Positions 15,961 to 23,235 of a stretch of DNA of 64,000 nt are shown here, piece by piece. Every line of letters starts with the position of its first letter. Position 1 is the first letter of the stretch. A program made the translations under genes and the position numbers. The DNA is from Methanospirillum hungatei. Its GTDB lineage: Archaea > Halobacteriota > Methanomicrobia > Methanomicrobiales > Methanospirillaceae. The notes below the pieces were generated by a model. It saw nothing but the letters and a program-made list of their open reading frames with translations, made no database searches and had not been told where the DNA came from. The stretch covers positions 1,302,001-1,366,000 of the forward strand of contig NZ_CP077107.1 of NCBI RefSeq assembly GCF_019263745.1, written 5' to 3'.

Positions 15961-16395
15961 TTACTCTACAAGAATTGCCAGAGAATAGGTCGTTTCATTG
16001 CCAACGGTTTCTTCCCATGGCTGCTTGTAGATACCATCGAAGGTTTGGTTTCCGACTGCAATAGCTTCAATGTACCATTCATGAACGCCCCCAACGCCCA
16101 CCATACCTTCAGCTGCTGCATCCTGAACATATGTCTCGTTCAGAAGTGCAAGCCCATCAGAGAGAGTTACATTCCATGAATAGCCAGTTGTGGGGTTCTC
16201 CGGAAGTTGAACAAATGCAACCTGATTCATGGTCATATTTAGTTCAGTTGTGTTCACATCTGCAGTGACGTTGTACGCCGGCGTGACTATTGCCTCATCA
16301 ACTACTTCAGATACTGTCTGTTCTTCTGCAATACACCCCGGGATCAGCAGAATCGCTGAAACCAGTAAGAGAAGGAACGTTACAATCCGATCCAT
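15961..16395 (-). CDS. Chagasin-like (inhibitor family I42) lipoprotein
   Basis: 144 residues. The signal peptide ends in a lipobox-like IPGC (Cys about residue 21), so it should be membrane-anchored outside the cell. The mature domain carries all three binding loops of chagasin-type cysteine peptidase inhibitors: NPTTGYSW, GVGGVHEW and KQPW. Family members block papain-like (C1) proteases by inserting these loops in the active site. The target here is unknown, since no C1 peptidase gene is in the window. A diverged tandem copy lies just upstream on the same strand. Confidence 0.86.
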   Translation of the reverse strand: MDRIVTFLLLLVSAILLIPGCIAEEQTVSEVVDEAIVTPAYNVTADVNTTELNMTMNQVAFVQLPENPTTGYSWNVTLSDGLALLNETYVQDAAAEGMVGVGGVHEWYIEAIAVGNQTFDGIYKQPWEETVGNETTYSLAILVE

Positions 16396-16508: not shown

Positions 16509-17006
16509 TTACTCTACGAGGATGTTAAGAGTGTATTCGCTGCCAGTCTCTTCTGAATCTGCCTTCTGCTCTACACCAGAGAAAGCCTGTTCTCCGGCTG
16601 CAGCTGCTTCAACAAACCACTGGTGGAAAGCGCCGACTGTGCCCTCTACTGCATCGATGTGGGTGTCGTTTACAATGGTGAGACCTTCAGATGCGGTTAC
16701 ATTCCACTCAAAGTCGGTGGTTTCTGGGAGCTCGATCATGACAACCTGACCAACAGTCATGTTGATGTCAGTGGTGTTCACGTCTGCAGTGACATTGTAT
16801 GCAAAGATTTCCTCGGTGATCTCTTCGGTCACTTCTTCAACGACCTCTTCACCTGGAAGCTGTGCTGCAACTGCTTCTTCAACAACTTCTTCTAATACAG
16901 CGCCTTCAGGGAGAACTTCAGGTGCTACCTGTTCTTCTGCAATACACCCCGGTACCAGCAGGACTGCTGAAACCAGTAAGAGAAGGAACGTTACAATCCG
17001 ATCCAT
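16509..17006 (-). CDS. Diverged chagasin-like lipoprotein, paralogue of the next gene
   Basis: 165 residues. The first about 25 residues are almost the same as in the gene at 15961 (MDRIVTFLLLLVSA, lipobox VPGC), and the DNA is also nearly identical there. An acidic Glu/Val-rich linker (about residues 25-68) has been added. In the mature domain the inhibitor loops are eroded: NPTTGYSW has become ETTDFEW, the GVGG loop is GTVGAFHQW, and the RPW-type loop is lost. It keeps the fold but probably not the usual protease contacts. Confidence 0.8.
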   Translation of the reverse strand: MDRIVTFLLLLVSAVLLVPGCIAEEQVAPEVLPEGAVLEEVVEEAVAAQLPGEEVVEEVTEEITEEIFAYNVTADVNTTDINMTVGQVVMIELPETTDFEWNVTASEGLTIVNDTHIDAVEGTVGAFHQWFVEAAAAGEQAFSGVEQKADSEETGSEYTLNILVE

Positions 17007-18030: not shown

Positions 18031-18444
18031 TTAATGAGCCCGGTTTTTTTTCATAATCAGACAATTTCCGGACTCTGTCTGTTTATACGTAACCTCATCC
18101 ATGAGAGATCGTATCAAGTGCACTCCAAGGCCTCCAATACGGCGCTCATCAATACCTGCCTCTGTGTCAGGAGTGGGAAGTGTAAGTGGATTAAAGAATG
18201 GTGCTTCATCACGGATGCAAAGCACAACCTGATGAGCAGAGATGATGCAACGAATTTCAATGAGTCCGGGACCTCCTTTATACCCGTGATTCATAATATT
18301 TACAACGGCTTCTTCAGCAGCAAGTTGCATCGCGTTTTCCACATCCGGGGGAGAATTTTCTGCTTCCAGTATTTCAGAGAGAAAATCAGCTAATTGGGTT
18401 ACGGCATGTTCAGGATCTGTCAGGTTAATCTGGTATGTTGCCAT
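18031..18444 (-). CDS. RsbW/SpoIIAB-like ATP-binding anti-sigma-type kinase
   Basis: 137 residues, a lone GHKL ATPase domain. The N-box is AAEEAVVNIMNHGY, the G1 region is RDEAPFFNP, and the G2 region is IGGLGVHLIRSLMDEVTY, all as in serine kinases of partner-switching systems. In bacteria such a protein phosphorylates a STAS protein and sequesters a sigma factor. Archaea have no sigma-70, so the output partner must differ. It lies 24 bases downstream of a STAS gene on the same strand. Confidence 0.9.
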   Translation of the reverse strand: MATYQINLTDPEHAVTQLADFLSEILEAENSPPDVENAMQLAAEEAVVNIMNHGYKGGPGLIEIRCIISAHQVVLCIRDEAPFFNPLTLPTPDTEAGIDERRIGGLGVHLIRSLMDEVTYKQTESGNCLIMKKNRAH

Positions 18445-18468: not shown

Positions 18469-18822
18469 TTATTTAGTCTGTAATTTTTCAATAGCCTGAT
18501 CAACTGAGGAGCATATTGGAAAAAGACGATCAAATCCTGTCATTTTAAACACTTCACCGGGACCAGCCTGTAGATTGGATAGAGCAATAATCCCTCCACA
18601 GGATTTCACCCGTTTGAGTGCTGCAAGAATGACACGAAGACCAGAACTACTGATGTAACTTAAATCACTCATGTTTAGCACCATGCTTGTAACACCGGAG
18701 TCGATCTTCTTTCCAAGTTCTCCCTCAATTTGTGAAGAGGTCGCGGCATCAATTCTCCCAGATATGTCAAGGATTGTGACTCCAGACACTTCGCGCTCGC
18801 TTACGGCTAGATTTCCTTCCAT
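18469..18822 (-). CDS. STAS-domain anti-anti-sigma-factor-like protein
   Basis: 117 residues, one STAS domain. The segment LSYISSSGLRVILAA has the serine that RsbW-type kinases phosphorylate and SpoIIE-type phosphatases dephosphorylate. It is the first gene of a pair with the RsbW-like kinase. A SpoIIE-family phosphatase is encoded 1.8 kb away, beyond the metallo-beta-lactamase gene, so all three parts of a partner switch are present. Confidence 0.9.
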   Translation of the reverse strand: MEGNLAVSEREVSGVTILDISGRIDAATSSQIEGELGKKIDSGVTSMVLNMSDLSYISSSGLRVILAALKRVKSCGGIIALSNLQAGPGEVFKMTGFDRLFPICSSVDQAIEKLQTK

Positions 18823-18913
18823 TCGTTTATCAACTCTTCATCTGTAACAGGTCAATTCTTATATATGAAGTCCATTGCATGGAATTTATGACTTGTGAAA
18901 TAGAGATCATTTC

Positions 18914-18924
18914 CTGGAGGAAGG
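18914..18924 (+). promoter_or_regulatory. Strong Shine-Dalgarno with no normal start codon at the right distance
   Basis: GGAGGAAGGA lies upstream of the MBL gene. The first in-frame ATG is 47 bases after GGAGG. At the usual distance there is only an in-frame ATT (18929, 8 bases after GGAGG) and then CTG (18935). An out-of-frame ATG at 18942 opens a 9-codon frame whose stop overlaps the ATG at 18968 (ATGA). Confidence 0.55.
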
Positions 18925-18967
18925 AAAAATTCCCCTGAAAAATGAAAGCTGGAATAATATCCCTGGC

Positions 18968-20656
18968 ATGAATGGCGGACGGATTTTTCCATTTATGCGA
19001 AAGCCGGATGTTACATGTTCTAATGTTTTCATCATTGATATCGGGGCTTTTACGGTACTTATTGATACAGGTGTATCGCGGGGTCTCATGGATTCCATTT
19101 GTAAGGTGCTCGCTGAGCTCAGTCAGGATAATCAGAAACCAATTCTCATAATATTTAGCCATACACATGTTGATCACATATATCTTGGCCTCGTTGACCA
19201 GAGATTTCAAAATTATGGGAAGGTATTCTATGTTTGTCATACATCAGGATCTGATCTCCTAAAATCCGGTGATCAAAAATATACACAGGCAGAGCTTGTG
19301 GGGATCCCAATACCCTCTCTTTGTGTAGACATCCCACTATTTCAGAAAAATTTAGATCTTAAGGGTCTGTCAAATATTCCTGAAATCGAAATAGAACACA
19401 AGCACTATCAATTATCTGACTCAGTGTCATTAGAATGCGTACGTTTTATCTTTCCGAATAACCAATGCATCAGTTTTTGGGAGGTTCCTGGACATTCTGC
19501 TGACAGTATCGCAGTTCAGGCAGGATCTCTCCTGCATGTTGGGGATATTCCTTTCGCTACTAGTCCCGGAATAGCTGGAGTGCCGGGATGGAATCCAAAA
19601 GAATTATCCAGAACGATAATTCGGCTATCATGGATCATACTGAACCAAAAAATTTCAATAATCTGTCAGGGCCATGGAAATGCCTGTACATCAGATGAAT
19701 TGAAAAAGAATCTTATGAATCTTCAGCAAGATTTGGATGCGATGCCAGAAATCACGATGTTTGACAAAACCCGATTGTCAGGGGCATTATTACATGCAAC
19801 AGACCTCATCGATGAAGCTCATCGGATCCTTCCCATTCTAGCCGGGAGAATTATGCTTCTTCGATACCGTCTTGAAGAACTGGAAGAGGATGATCTTGCC
19901 CGGAACCTTGAAAAGATCCTTCCAGATGAAGAGATTGATAAAATACTAGTACAATTTTCCCGCTACTATGATAATTTCAAAAGTGGATTACGATGTGAGT
20001 ACCAGGTTATCTTAAAAGCGATTCAGACATTGCAGAAGATCAAGTCATTTCTCTCGGGAAATAATGTTGAAAATATCATTGATTCATCTCTTCTCAGGCG
20101 TACTCTACAACTTTTTTCAGATCTTCTATCCTCAATTCAGGGGAACATTCCAACCGGCTCTCTCTCATTCGTCAATCCTGTTGATTTAATTCAGGATGTT
20201 GCTCATCGGAGGTCCTCTCATATGATGAGTGATGAGGAAATTCTACTCAAGGCAGACGATGAAGACGAATTTAAAAAAGTGCTCGTGTGTAGGTTGGCAG
20301 AATATCAAAACCTTTCGGACATTAAAATTACTATCGACTCTCCAATAGATCCTCAAACCATTTATGCAGATTCAGAACGACTTTCAGATTTTTTTAGTGT
20401 CCTCATTGACTACTATTACACGTATGGTGCAGATGAAGCGCACATTACGATAAATACTCTACCAGAATTTGTCCTTATCAAAATTGCTCCAAATGGTGCT
20501 TGCTTTCAGCCATGCCTTCCTCTCTCCCGTGCCATGATCAGATCAATCAAATATGCAGGCGGCGAACTTGTTAAAATTCCCGGAAAAGAATCAGAAGAGA
20601 TGGTTCTTAAGTTTTCAACAAAAGACCCATCACTAACAGGCTCGAATCAGAATTAG
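18968..20656 (+). CDS. Metallo-beta-lactamase domain fused to a degenerate histidine-kinase-like C-terminus
   Basis: 562 residues from the ATG at 18968. Residues 1 to about 240 form a metallo-beta-lactamase fold with every metal ligand in place: SHTHVDH, PGHS, HVGD and the late QGHG. Residues about 255-390 are long helices resembling a dimerisation domain. Residues about 425-550 resemble a GHKL ATPase (ADSERLSDFFSVLIDYYYTY, then AGGEL), but the N-box Asn and the Gly-rich lid are missing, so ATP binding is doubtful. It sits between STAS/RsbW and the SpoIIE phosphatase and overlaps the latter tail to tail. A sensor role in the partner switch is inference. The true start may be ATT 18929 or CTG 18935. 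Confidence 0.82.
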   Translation: MNGGRIFPFMRKPDVTCSNVFIIDIGAFTVLIDTGVSRGLMDSICKVLAELSQDNQKPILIIFSHTHVDHIYLGLVDQRFQNYGKVFYVCHTSGSDLLKSGDQKYTQAELVGIPIPSLCVDIPLFQKNLDLKGLSNIPEIEIEHKHYQLSDSVSLECVRFIFPNNQCISFWEVPGHSADSIAVQAGSLLHVGDIPFATSPGIAGVPGWNPKELSRTIIRLSWIILNQKISIICQGHGNACTSDELKKNLMNLQQDLDAMPEITMFDKTRLSGALLHATDLIDEAHRILPILAGRIMLLRYRLEELEEDDLARNLEKILPDEEIDKILVQFSRYYDNFKSGLRCEYQVILKAIQTLQKIKSFLSGNNVENIIDSSLLRRTLQLFSDLLSSIQGNIPTGSLSFVNPVDLIQDVAHRRSSHMMSDEEILLKADDEDEFKKVLVCRLAEYQNLSDIKITIDSPIDPQTIYADSERLSDFFSVLIDYYYTYGADEAHITINTLPEFVLIKIAPNGACFQPCLPLSRAMIRSIKYAGGELVKIPGKESEEMVLKFSTKDPSLTGSNQN

Positions 20657-22744
20657 AGTAATATCATCTGATTGAGGCGTTTCTTTCGTGAACTCCTTTA
20701 TTGATTCTCTGATCTTTTCTATAAGATCAGGAAGTTTTCGATCCCGGTTATTTATCAAAACTTCAGAAAACCTCTCCATACCATACTCTTCCCCATCTTT
20801 ATTCATCGCTTCAGTGATACCATCAGTATACAGTGCGACAAAATCTCCTTCCTTCAAATCAACGGTGACTGAGGCAAGATCAATACCATCGATTATTCCA
20901 AGAGCTATACCCTCAGCTTTCAGAAGTGTGATGTCATTTTTATTCTCCCTCGTCAACATGAGCGGAGGATTATGACCAGCATTCACGTAGGTAATTTTCC
21001 GGTGTTCTGAATCGATTACCAGATAGAACAAGGTAACAAACATGCTTGCTTTTGAATCACGGCAGATCAGTGAGTTTGCTTCAGTTATCGCAGATGCCGG
21101 ATCACTTTTCCAGGTAGCACTCACCCGAATCAGAGTCCTTGATAATGCCATAAACAATGCAGCGGGAACTCCTTTTCCGCTCACATCAGCAATAACAAGC
21201 CCCCATTCATGATCTCCAACCGGAATAAAGTCATAAAAATCACCCCCAACTTCAAGGGCTGGGCTGGAAAAAACGGCAAGCTCCATACCAGGAATATCAG
21301 GCACTGAATCAGGGAGAAAACTCTGCTGAATTCCTTGTGCGATCTCCAACTCCCGGGTAAAACGTTCTTTCTCTGCTGTTGTACGCCGTAATTCAAGAAT
21401 ATAATTTCGAAGATCGCCCGTCATCTTGTTAAAGACTCCGGCAAGTTCTTCAAACTCATCACCGGAATTAATCGTCACCGGAGTCTGAAGATCACCAGTA
21501 CCAATTCTTTTGGCCCCTTCACTCAAAATTCGGACAGGCCCGGTAATAAATTTCGAGAAGAATATCGAAATGCCGGTTACTCCAATGAATAACAGGATAA
21601 AACTGAGTATCAGAACTGTCTGTAAAAAAGACATCTGGTGAGTGATGTGAGTATGAGTCTCTTCGCTGGCATTTCGAATAACACTCCCTGTTATCTGGGC
21701 TGGTGCAATGACACTTTCAACCGGCAAAACGAGACCGATACTCCAGCCAACACTTTTAACCGGTGCATATGCAATGTATTTGTCGCCTTCCTCAAACCGG
21801 CACCTGCTGACACCTGAAAAACCCTGAGTCATTTCAGTTGCAATCTTCCGAAGATCTTCATTGGTACTCTGAAGAAGATTTTCGGTCTCATATGATTCGT
21901 CCCATCTGGTAGCACCTGCAGTAAGCCCGGGACGAGAAATGATGTCTCCTCTCTGGTTAATCAGGAATGCATACCCATTTTCACCAAGCTGCGTTGTGAT
22001 GATACGGTAATTGATGGTTTCAATGGTAATATCCGCTCCCATCACCCAGGTCTGATTGTGTACTGGATCTTCAAGAGCTTTTGAACAGGTTATGGTCAGA
22101 CCATTTCCAAGTACATCAACATAGGGATCAGACCATGTCAGAGTTTTTTTTGCCAGTGCATCTATAAACCAATCTCTTGAACGTGGTTCAAATGTCGCGT
22201 CAACTCTTGGAGTCCATGGAAATATAATTGTGATTCCTGATGAGGATGTTACATACAGGGCAGTCAGCCGGTTATCTGCATGGAACAGTGGATTGAATAC
22301 CGCCTGAAAAGAACTGATACGGTCAATTTCATCACGGACATCGTTTAATTGCACCTCAGGAGAGAGATGAATTACACCGGCTTCACCAGGTTTCAGAGGT
22401 TTATTGTCTTTTGTATACCACTGAACAGGAGTGGTATTCGAACCTTGTATTATCTCTCTCCCATATGCATTGATGACATTCATCTCTGAGATAATCCGTT
22501 CAAATATCATGTCGGTTATCTCTGCCTGATCAGTCGCTAATCGGAGAAGATAGATCTCGGCATCTTCTTCTAGTGCGGTGGTGCTTTCCCCTATTGCTTT
22601 TTCACCTAGTGCCTGACTTGAGCCGGTTGCATAATTCCCCAGATTATCCATCATTATCCAGGAAACTCCTCCAATTACAAGAAAGATAATACTAGTGAGC
22701 AGGATCATTACCAAGAGCAGTTTTGCTGCAACTCCAAACCTCAT
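20633..22744 (-). CDS. Membrane sensor phosphatase: dCache - HAMP - SpoIIE/PP2C
   Basis: 703 residues. A membrane helix at about 9-31, an outside dCache-like sensor (about 35-345, with PRSRDWF and GYAFLINQRGDII), a second helix near 370-393, a HAMP linker, then a PP2C-type SpoIIE domain from about 480. Metal-binding aspartates are seen in VGGDFYDF, ADVSGKG and the final QSDDITL. It should dephosphorylate the STAS protein in response to an outside ligand. Its start overlaps the upstream lipoprotein stop by ATGA, so an outside lipoprotein and the sensor are made together. Confidence 0.93.
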   Translation of the reverse strand: MRFGVAAKLLLVMILLTSIIFLVIGGVSWIMMDNLGNYATGSSQALGEKAIGESTTALEEDAEIYLLRLATDQAEITDMIFERIISEMNVINAYGREIIQGSNTTPVQWYTKDNKPLKPGEAGVIHLSPEVQLNDVRDEIDRISSFQAVFNPLFHADNRLTALYVTSSSGITIIFPWTPRVDATFEPRSRDWFIDALAKKTLTWSDPYVDVLGNGLTITCSKALEDPVHNQTWVMGADITIETINYRIITTQLGENGYAFLINQRGDIISRPGLTAGATRWDESYETENLLQSTNEDLRKIATEMTQGFSGVSRCRFEEGDKYIAYAPVKSVGWSIGLVLPVESVIAPAQITGSVIRNASEETHTHITHQMSFLQTVLILSFILLFIGVTGISIFFSKFITGPVRILSEGAKRIGTGDLQTPVTINSGDEFEELAGVFNKMTGDLRNYILELRRTTAEKERFTRELEIAQGIQQSFLPDSVPDIPGMELAVFSSPALEVGGDFYDFIPVGDHEWGLVIADVSGKGVPAALFMALSRTLIRVSATWKSDPASAITEANSLICRDSKASMFVTLFYLVIDSEHRKITYVNAGHNPPLMLTRENKNDITLLKAEGIALGIIDGIDLASVTVDLKEGDFVALYTDGITEAMNKDGEEYGMERFSEVLINNRDRKLPDLIEKIRESIKEFTKETPQSDDITLILIRAC

Positions 22745-23235
22745 AGTACCTCTGTACTTTGGCTCATATCTGCATCATCAACAACAATGACATTCAGTCT
22801 TTGTTGAACAATCTCCTGATTCCAGGAAGTGGTTCTGGGTCGCAAATTTCCCATAAACATATGATCGCCAGGAGCTATTGCTTTGACCATCCATTGTCTG
22901 GTTCCTGATACTGCAACCGGCATATCTGGGGGATAGGGAACATACCGATCACCAGTTACAAACAAACCACTTGTGACAGAAATTCTCCAGTATCGCCCAT
23001 CTTCCGGAGTCCAGGGATATGAAACTAGCATCGTTCCATTCAGGGGAAGAGTCACCTGCATAGAATTTTCATCTGCATAGATATCCGGCGGATTGGTAAA
23101 TGCTTCTGGACGAATAGTATAGCCAGCGTTTGTCTGTACACACCCAGAGGAAATCAGAAAGAAAATACAGATACCAATAAAAAAGACTATTTTGAGGTTA
23201 ATTTTTTTCTTCCGAAATTGAATTTGATGAAACAT
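22741..23235 (-). CDS. Chagasin-fold-like lipoprotein coupled to the sensor phosphatase
   Basis: 164 residues. A basic start, a hydrophobic helix (about 15-30) and a lipobox-like ISSGC (Cys about residue 32) mark a lipoprotein. The rest follows the chagasin layout: PWTPEDGRYW in place of NPTTGYxW, AVSGTRQW in place of the GxGG loop, and LRPRTTSW in place of the RPW loop. Inhibitor activity is not certain, since the first loop is altered. Its overlap with the dCache-SpoIIE gene suggests it may act as, or present, the sensor's ligand (inference). Confidence 0.75.
   Translation of the reverse strand: MFHQIQFRKKKINLKIVFFIGICIFFLISSGCVQTNAGYTIRPEAFTNPPDIYADENSMQVTLPLNGTMLVSYPWTPEDGRYWRISVTSGLFVTGDRYVPYPPDMPVAVSGTRQWMVKAIAPGDHMFMGNLRPRTTSWNQEIVQQRLNVIVVDDADMSQSTEVL

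Follow-up and report, generated by a model that had tools for sequence, protein, structure and literature searches.

Genes at the partner-switch locus

The window analysed here is a stretch of 64,000 nucleotides from Methanospirillum hungatei (contig NZ_CP077107.1, positions 1,302,001 to 1,366,000 of the forward strand). It encodes a STAS protein, an RsbW-like kinase and a SpoIIE phosphatase, the components of a partner switch, and among them a metallo-beta-lactamase (MBL) protein with a kinase-like tail. We examine this MBL protein as a candidate target of the switch. The genes and their parts, in window positions, are as follows.

18031–18444, minus strand: RsbW/SpoIIAB-like serine kinase with a HATPase_c_2 domain, 137 amino acids (PF13581, E=6.4e-31)
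18469–18822, minus strand: STAS anti-anti-sigma-like protein, 117 amino acids (PF01740, E=2.4e-21; TIGR00377 above cut-off)
18823–18928, no strand: divergent STAS/MBL intergenic region, with a TATA-like TTATATAT near 18858
18929–20656, plus strand: MBL-pseudokinase protein including its probable upstream start; the open reading frame (ORF) from ATG is 18968–20656, 562 amino acids (PF00753, E=1.2e-7)
18968–19741, plus strand: MBL domain, residues 1–258 (PF00753)
19766–20140, plus strand: predicted helical bundle, residues 267–391, at a DHp-like position (AlphaFold model and conservation)
20162–20617, plus strand: predicted degenerate GHKL/HATPase_c-like domain, residues 399–550 (model and profile matches)
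20633–22744, minus strand: membrane sensor phosphatase dCache-HAMP-SpoIIE, 703 amino acids (PF07228, E=1.9e-53; dCache_1 and HAMP from Pfam)
Parts of the SpoIIE protein, minus strand (Pfam): dCache, about 21734–22279; HAMP, 21407–21562; SpoIIE/PPM, 20642–21214

The three switch genes are on the minus strand, and the MBL gene lies between STAS and SpoIIE on the plus strand. It is divergent from the STAS gene, and its 3′ end shares 24 bp with the 3′ end of the SpoIIE gene. Because of its opposite strand, the MBL gene stands outside the operon of the RsbW, STAS and SpoIIE genes. The original prediction, made from the letters of the DNA, had named these four proteins, and Pfam finds them all, the RsbW gene lying just outside the interval that was then described.

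The RsbW-like kinase possesses both the N-box (EEAVVNIMNHG) and the GGLGVHLI box of a HATPase_c_2 kinase, and the NCBIfam models of RsbW/SpoIIAB match it below their cut-offs. The STAS protein has a serine at the position of SpoIIAA Ser58 (YISSSGLR), and this phosphoacceptor is kept in all 76 distinct STAS sequences adjacent or fused to the MBL-tail family. The phosphatase motifs GGDFYD, ADVSGKG, TDG and DDIT are present in the SpoIIE/PPM protein, whose best NCBIfam match is SiaA (E=4.7e-26, below cut-off).

The host genome consists of one contig of 3.39 Mb, with just four STAS matches in total. It shows no match to sigma-70 region 2 (PF04542), a profile that matches in 10 of 14 control genomes, which bears out the claim of a complete partner-switch set in an archaeon without sigma-70. 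No sigma-70-like promoter was found in the STAS/MBL intergenic region. Elsewhere in the same genome (G000:C1 16965–30141), another STAS gene, an RsbW-like kinase in a 505-residue frame and a SpoIIE gene cluster within 13 kb, so the genome may hold a second switch.

The metallo-beta-lactamase domain and the gene start

The metal ligands of the MBL domain (H65-x-H67-x-D69-H70, H176, D193 and H236) are invariant in 113 of 113 aligned members of the family, in agreement with the complete metal site noticed earlier in the 562-residue protein. The site is of the HxHxDH hydrolase type, and the second ligand is a histidine (H67) in every member. HxExD is the diiron ligand pattern of flavodiiron/ODP redox sensors, and it does not occur in any of the 113. 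Among the Foldseek matches listed, S. aureus GloB is the best (7l0b, TMt 0.79) and GloB-like hydrolases are the nearest solved structures. The MBL domain would act as a hydrolase, presumably on a small-molecule substrate.

The original prediction took the MBL domain for a catalytic or redox sensor, with the kinase-like tail passing its signal into the STAS/RsbW/SpoIIE switch as an input. Seven MBL members do have weak ODP matches (PF19583, E down to 2.3e-4), as such a sensor might, whereas ligands of the HxHxDH type, and not the flavodiiron/ODP type, argue against it.

We notice that the ATG at 18968 is preceded in frame by LKNESWNNIPG. This segment includes the N-terminal family motif W-x-x-x-P-G, which reads WQPxPG in most MBL-tail family members, so the true start is probably upstream. 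Translation probably begins at a non-ATG codon, either ATT 18929 or CTG 18935, behind a strong GGAGGAAGG. As the start would not be ATG, GTG or TTG (region 18896–18970), ATG-based gene callers would lose 11–13 residues.

The helical and pseudo-GHKL tail

AlphaFold on the single MBL sequence reached a mean predicted local distance difference test score (pLDDT) of 35.6, and a family alignment was used instead. With 54 aligned relatives, the model is confident over the full length (pLDDT 90.6, predicted template modelling score 0.87). In this model, the strand and helix order of residues 399–550 matches the HATPase_c fold with no space for an ATP lid; a short loop from strand 501–509 to helix 521–529 replaces the lid. 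The column of the catalytic N-box asparagine holds Tyr482 in the window protein and aspartate in most members. Neither the DxGxG box nor the second glycine box is seen in the tail across the alignment of 113 members. Similarly, there is no H-box histidine, since no histidine occurs among the positions at least 85% conserved within residues 267–391 of these members.

Pfam has no family covering the tail, and the Foldseek matches listed for the whole protein cover the MBL domain only. A tail profile searched against the PDB gives weak matches specific to the ATPase domains of histidine kinases (ZraS, E=0.0047; ThkA, 0.056). With hhalign, the tail aligns to histidine kinases at E=4.8e-5 and to RsbW at 0.007, the STAS and SpoIIE controls giving 0.07–0.15. 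On the basis of the predicted structure and these weak profile matches, the tail appears to be a degenerate GHKL/HATPase_c-like domain. Its element order, Tyr482, short loop and weak HATPase_c matches are all consistent with the GHKL-like tail lacking the N-box asparagine and lid that had been described. The comparison with histidine kinases proposed at that time likewise points to a predicted fold that is GHKL-like, not one unlike GHKL/DHp modules.

The helical part carries the family motifs G293-R294, K350-x-x-Q353, R378 and D385. K350-x-x-Q353 is conserved in archaeal members but in only two of eight Desulfobacterota orphans. We considered it as a STAS contact and set it aside as just a hint, because it is kept in most archaeal copies without an adjacent STAS gene and varies in a few STAS-linked ones.

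The same tail also occurs outside the MBL family. Four Methanospirillum species encode a membrane protein of about 1150 residues in which 5TM-5TMR_LYT sensor domains are followed by the helical/pseudo-GHKL tail. Its N-terminus is transporter-like, NRAMP-like by eye, with no Pfam match. No STAS gene lies beside it in the following four locus sequences.

L079:1433–4876, plus strand: tail-bearing membrane protein, with two 5TM-5TMR_LYT stretches
L078:2685–6143, plus strand: tail-bearing membrane protein
L060:16887–20000, minus strand: tail-bearing membrane protein, partial at the locus end
L061:2–2377, plus strand: tail-bearing membrane protein, partial at the locus start

The tail bears on the sensor hypothesis in both directions. 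It stands where a histidine kinase has its core, after an N-terminal domain, and some Methanospirillum proteins have it behind 5TMR_LYT membrane sensor domains, as expected of a transducer, but the tail has no catalytic residues for kinase signalling. In addition, the recognisable sensors of these loci sit on SpoIIE and are swapped by lineage: dCache-HAMP in the window, 5TMR_LYT in Methanoregula, and elsewhere multiple PAS, CHASE4-HAMP-PAS fused to RsbW, Cache, REC or GAF domains. The MBL-tail protein, unlike these sensors, is constant across lineages. Given the sensors on SpoIIE, the HxHxDH site, and a STAS-MBL pair or fusion that persists without nearby RsbW or SpoIIE (see below), we depart from the original prediction and consider it unlikely that the switch is fed by the MBL protein acting as a sensor.

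Linkage of the MBL gene to STAS

Linkage was counted over 113 non-redundant relatives, with adjacency set at no more than 400 bp and a wider class at no more than 8 kb. Neighbour genes were typed by profile searches over all ORFs; longest-ORF calling gave shadow ORFs in high-GC loci. STAS is fused or adjacent in 72 of the 113, comprising 5 fusions, 50 co-directional pairs, mostly overlapping or with a gap below 50 bp, and 17 divergent pairs. An RsbW, SpoIIE or long STAS protein adjoins in 4 more, and in a further 18 a switch gene lies no more than 8 kb away, so that 94 relatives have a switch gene fused or in this range. The original prediction had asked where homologues of the MBL-tail protein occur, and by these counts they are mostly near switch genes. 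The remaining 19 have no switch gene near; 6 of them lie on contigs shorter than 13.4 kb.

The usual order is STAS followed by MBL on one strand with an overlap or tiny gap, and SpoIIE and RsbW divergent alongside. Most Methanoculleus genomes have STAS 3–6 kb from the MBL gene and a STAS-SpoIIE-RsbW cluster 10–14 kb off. In one Methanolinea clade, STAS forms the C-terminal domain of the MBL protein in one polypeptide. A STAS-MBL pair without RsbW or SpoIIE is found in 14 loci that have 5-kb flanks on both sides. On a quick tree with long branches, the gene arrangement changed at least 19 times, which suggests that STAS-MBL proximity is not merely inherited synteny; repeated rearrangement and fusion together argue against simple inheritance of the linkage, whose statistics take account of common descent only in part. 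An ABC ATPase gene that follows the MBL gene in Methanoregula was set aside as a generic neighbour.

With STAS as its neighbour in most relatives and as its fusion partner in some, the MBL protein stands out as the leading candidate for what the switch controls. The tightest neighbour is STAS rather than RsbW or SpoIIE, and this, with the overlapping genes and the C-terminal fusion, suggests a stoichiometric contact between STAS and the MBL protein.

The contact could also take another form, in which RsbW has to compete for STAS with a decoy, the pseudo-GHKL tail, whose response to a metabolite comes from the MBL domain; the protein would then tune the switch, and the output would be something else. 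One candidate for such an output, or for a partner of the switch, is a STAS protein of about 435 residues (STAS-435), whose C-terminal region is absent from Pfam and which recurs in switch clusters of Methanoregula and Methanoculleus.

L044:11946–13253, minus strand: STAS-435 protein
Window genome, G000:C1 near 1604765: STAS-435 protein, 442 amino acids

STAS-435 proteins occur in many of the same clusters, and the GHKL superfamily includes both RsbW and the tail, with very weak similarity between the two. However, STAS uses the lid and the ATP site on SpoIIAB, and both are absent from the tail. The MBL-STAS pair is also kept where RsbW and SpoIIE are not nearby, and as a fusion, where competing for a separate STAS makes little sense. 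We therefore regard a decoy as quite unlikely.

Distribution of the MBL-tail protein

A contig scan of genomes with the single MBL protein as query gave no match; the family alignment as query gave 67 loci. The MBL-tail protein occurs in 118 of 232 genomes of the class Methanomicrobia and also in a family of another order (f22). All 77 near-complete Methanomicrobia genomes with the MBL protein have SpoIIE as well, and none of 30 SpoIIE-negative genomes encodes the MBL protein (Fisher p=3e-14, a statistic that ignores phylogeny).

Occurrence in bacteria is scattered. The protein is found in 8 of 395 genomes in the phylum of a Geobacter metagenome-assembled genome (MAG), and in 1 of 398 Pseudomonadota genomes, that one being the genome on which the search was centred. 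In five bacterial MAGs (Omnitrophota, Binatia, Burkholderiales, Gammaproteobacteria and Acetobacteraceae), in which binning errors are possible, STAS lies within 130 bp upstream of the MBL gene on the same strand. The Desulfobacterota orphans mostly have no K-x-x-Q, and the copy in the Geobacter MAG follows an NtrC-type response regulator gene on the same strand.

The MBL enzyme as a candidate output of the switch

We read the MBL protein as an output because the sensors sit on SpoIIE and vary, whereas the MBL protein stays the same and has STAS as its nearest partner. An output fits better than a sensor, although the direction of control is part of this interpretation. In our judgement the balance tips slightly towards a sigma-independent partner-switch module at this locus, in which the state of STAS would control the MBL enzyme via its helical/pseudo-GHKL tail. 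A bolder reading, to which we give an even chance, sees in the MBL-pseudokinase the target so far missing for the archaeal SpoIIAA/SpoIIAB/SpoIIE-type switch. Phosphorylation of STAS would then gate a metallo-hydrolase by way of a dead GHKL domain that serves for docking, an enzymatic and non-transcriptional output in archaea and a few bacteria; partner switches are not known to have an output of this class. Physical binding of STAS to the tail, output rather than input, the direction of control and the hydrolysis of a small molecule are the parts that we infer.

Several observations weigh against this interpretation. The window has its MBL gene on the strand opposite to the switch genes. Some genomes have SpoIIE without the MBL protein, so it cannot be the sole target of the switch. 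There is no STAS, RsbW or SpoIIE gene close to eight Desulfobacterota copies (L239, L240, L241, L242, L243, L244, L245 and L247), of which two lie on single large contigs, and none of these genes is near five fully flanked archaeal copies; the MBL-tail protein thus seems usable without a linked switch. Moreover, a tail that ends a 5TMR_LYT membrane protein would suit a transducer no less than an output.

The divergent orientation in the window and the Desulfobacterota orphans would also suit a purely genomic association. The MBL enzyme would then share a stress pathway or regulon with the switch and keep company with its genes, but make no contact with STAS. That STAS alone is the tightest neighbour, with overlapping genes and a C-terminal fusion, speaks against this, and we hold it to be very unlikely.

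If the MBL enzyme is the output, the switch may work as follows. When an extracellular signal is present, the dCache-HAMP-SpoIIE phosphatase would dephosphorylate STAS; when it is absent, the RsbW-like kinase would phosphorylate STAS. STAS in one phosphorylation state, most likely without the phosphate, would dock on the MBL protein at its helical/pseudo-GHKL tail and thereby set the activity or the oligomeric state of the metallo-hydrolase domain. The dead GHKL domain would have no kinase role and would instead serve for docking and relay.

Lipoprotein genes next to the switch

Beside the SpoIIE gene lies a lipoprotein gene.

22741–23235, minus strand: chagasin-like (I42) lipoprotein (PF09394, E=6.6e-11)

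It overlaps the start of the SpoIIE gene by 4 nt (ATGA) and is retained only in close Methanospirillum relatives. This lipoprotein may be a periplasmic accessory or partner of the dCache sensor. It is one of three chagasin-like (I42) lipoproteins around the switch locus, all encoded on the minus strand; the other two are at 16509–17006 and 15961–16395.

Comparison with known systems

SpoIIAA, SpoIIAB and SpoIIE genes were reported in M. labreanum, M. marisnigri and M. hungatei by Anderson et al. 2009 (PMC2686161). The part of that paper concerned with these genes states that the targets of the switch could not be determined from sequence; it names no target and is silent on the MBL neighbour. 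With gene neighbourhoods compared in more than 100 genomes and a natural STAS fusion, one protein now stands out as the candidate target. The same part reports the genes within Methanomicrobiales only, whereas we find the MBL-linked switch also in family f22 outside this order and, among bacteria, STAS-MBL pairs in a few MAGs. A census of archaeal two-component systems touches on SpoIIE domains in passing (PMC5847659), and a review of STAS-only proteins does not cover archaea (PMC8256260). In the open-access literature searched, we found no paper linking partner switching or an anti-sigma antagonist to an MBL fold.

The locus resembles the RsbU/RsbV/RsbW and SpoIIE/SpoIIAA/SpoIIAB switches of Bacillus in its sensor PPM phosphatase, STAS phosphoacceptor serine, HATPase_c_2 kinase and clustered genes. 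It differs in that the window genome has no match to sigma-70 region 2 and has the additional MBL-pseudokinase protein. The MBL domain itself shares the fold and the HxHxDH...H...D...H ligands of GloB/glyoxalase-II-like hydrolases (S. aureus GloB, 7l0b; TTHA1623, 2zwr), but the window protein bears a 300-residue helical and pseudo-GHKL tail.

The SiaABCD system of Pseudomonas aeruginosa (PMC8457831) likewise combines a sensor phosphatase, a kinase and a small STAS-like protein, and its enzyme is controlled by contact with a helical part: SiaD is activated when its helical stalk is bound by SiaC in the unphosphorylated state. The output there is a GGDEF cyclase, in contrast to the MBL fold with pseudo-GHKL tail here, and SiaC is a DUF1987 protein phosphorylated on threonine. 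HsbA and BgrV are STAS proteins controlling diguanylate cyclases (PMC8457831, PMC5085249); HsbR-HsbA-HsbD and BgrV-BgrR are thus STAS partner switches with an enzyme as output, as proposed here, while the enzyme class and the domain of life differ. By analogy, we read the MBL protein as a STAS-controlled output like SiaD under SiaC or HsbD under HsbA in Pseudomonas. If this is true, archaeal partner switching operates without transcription factors, and a new enzyme class joins the diguanylate cyclases SiaD, HsbD and BgrR as the output of such a switch.

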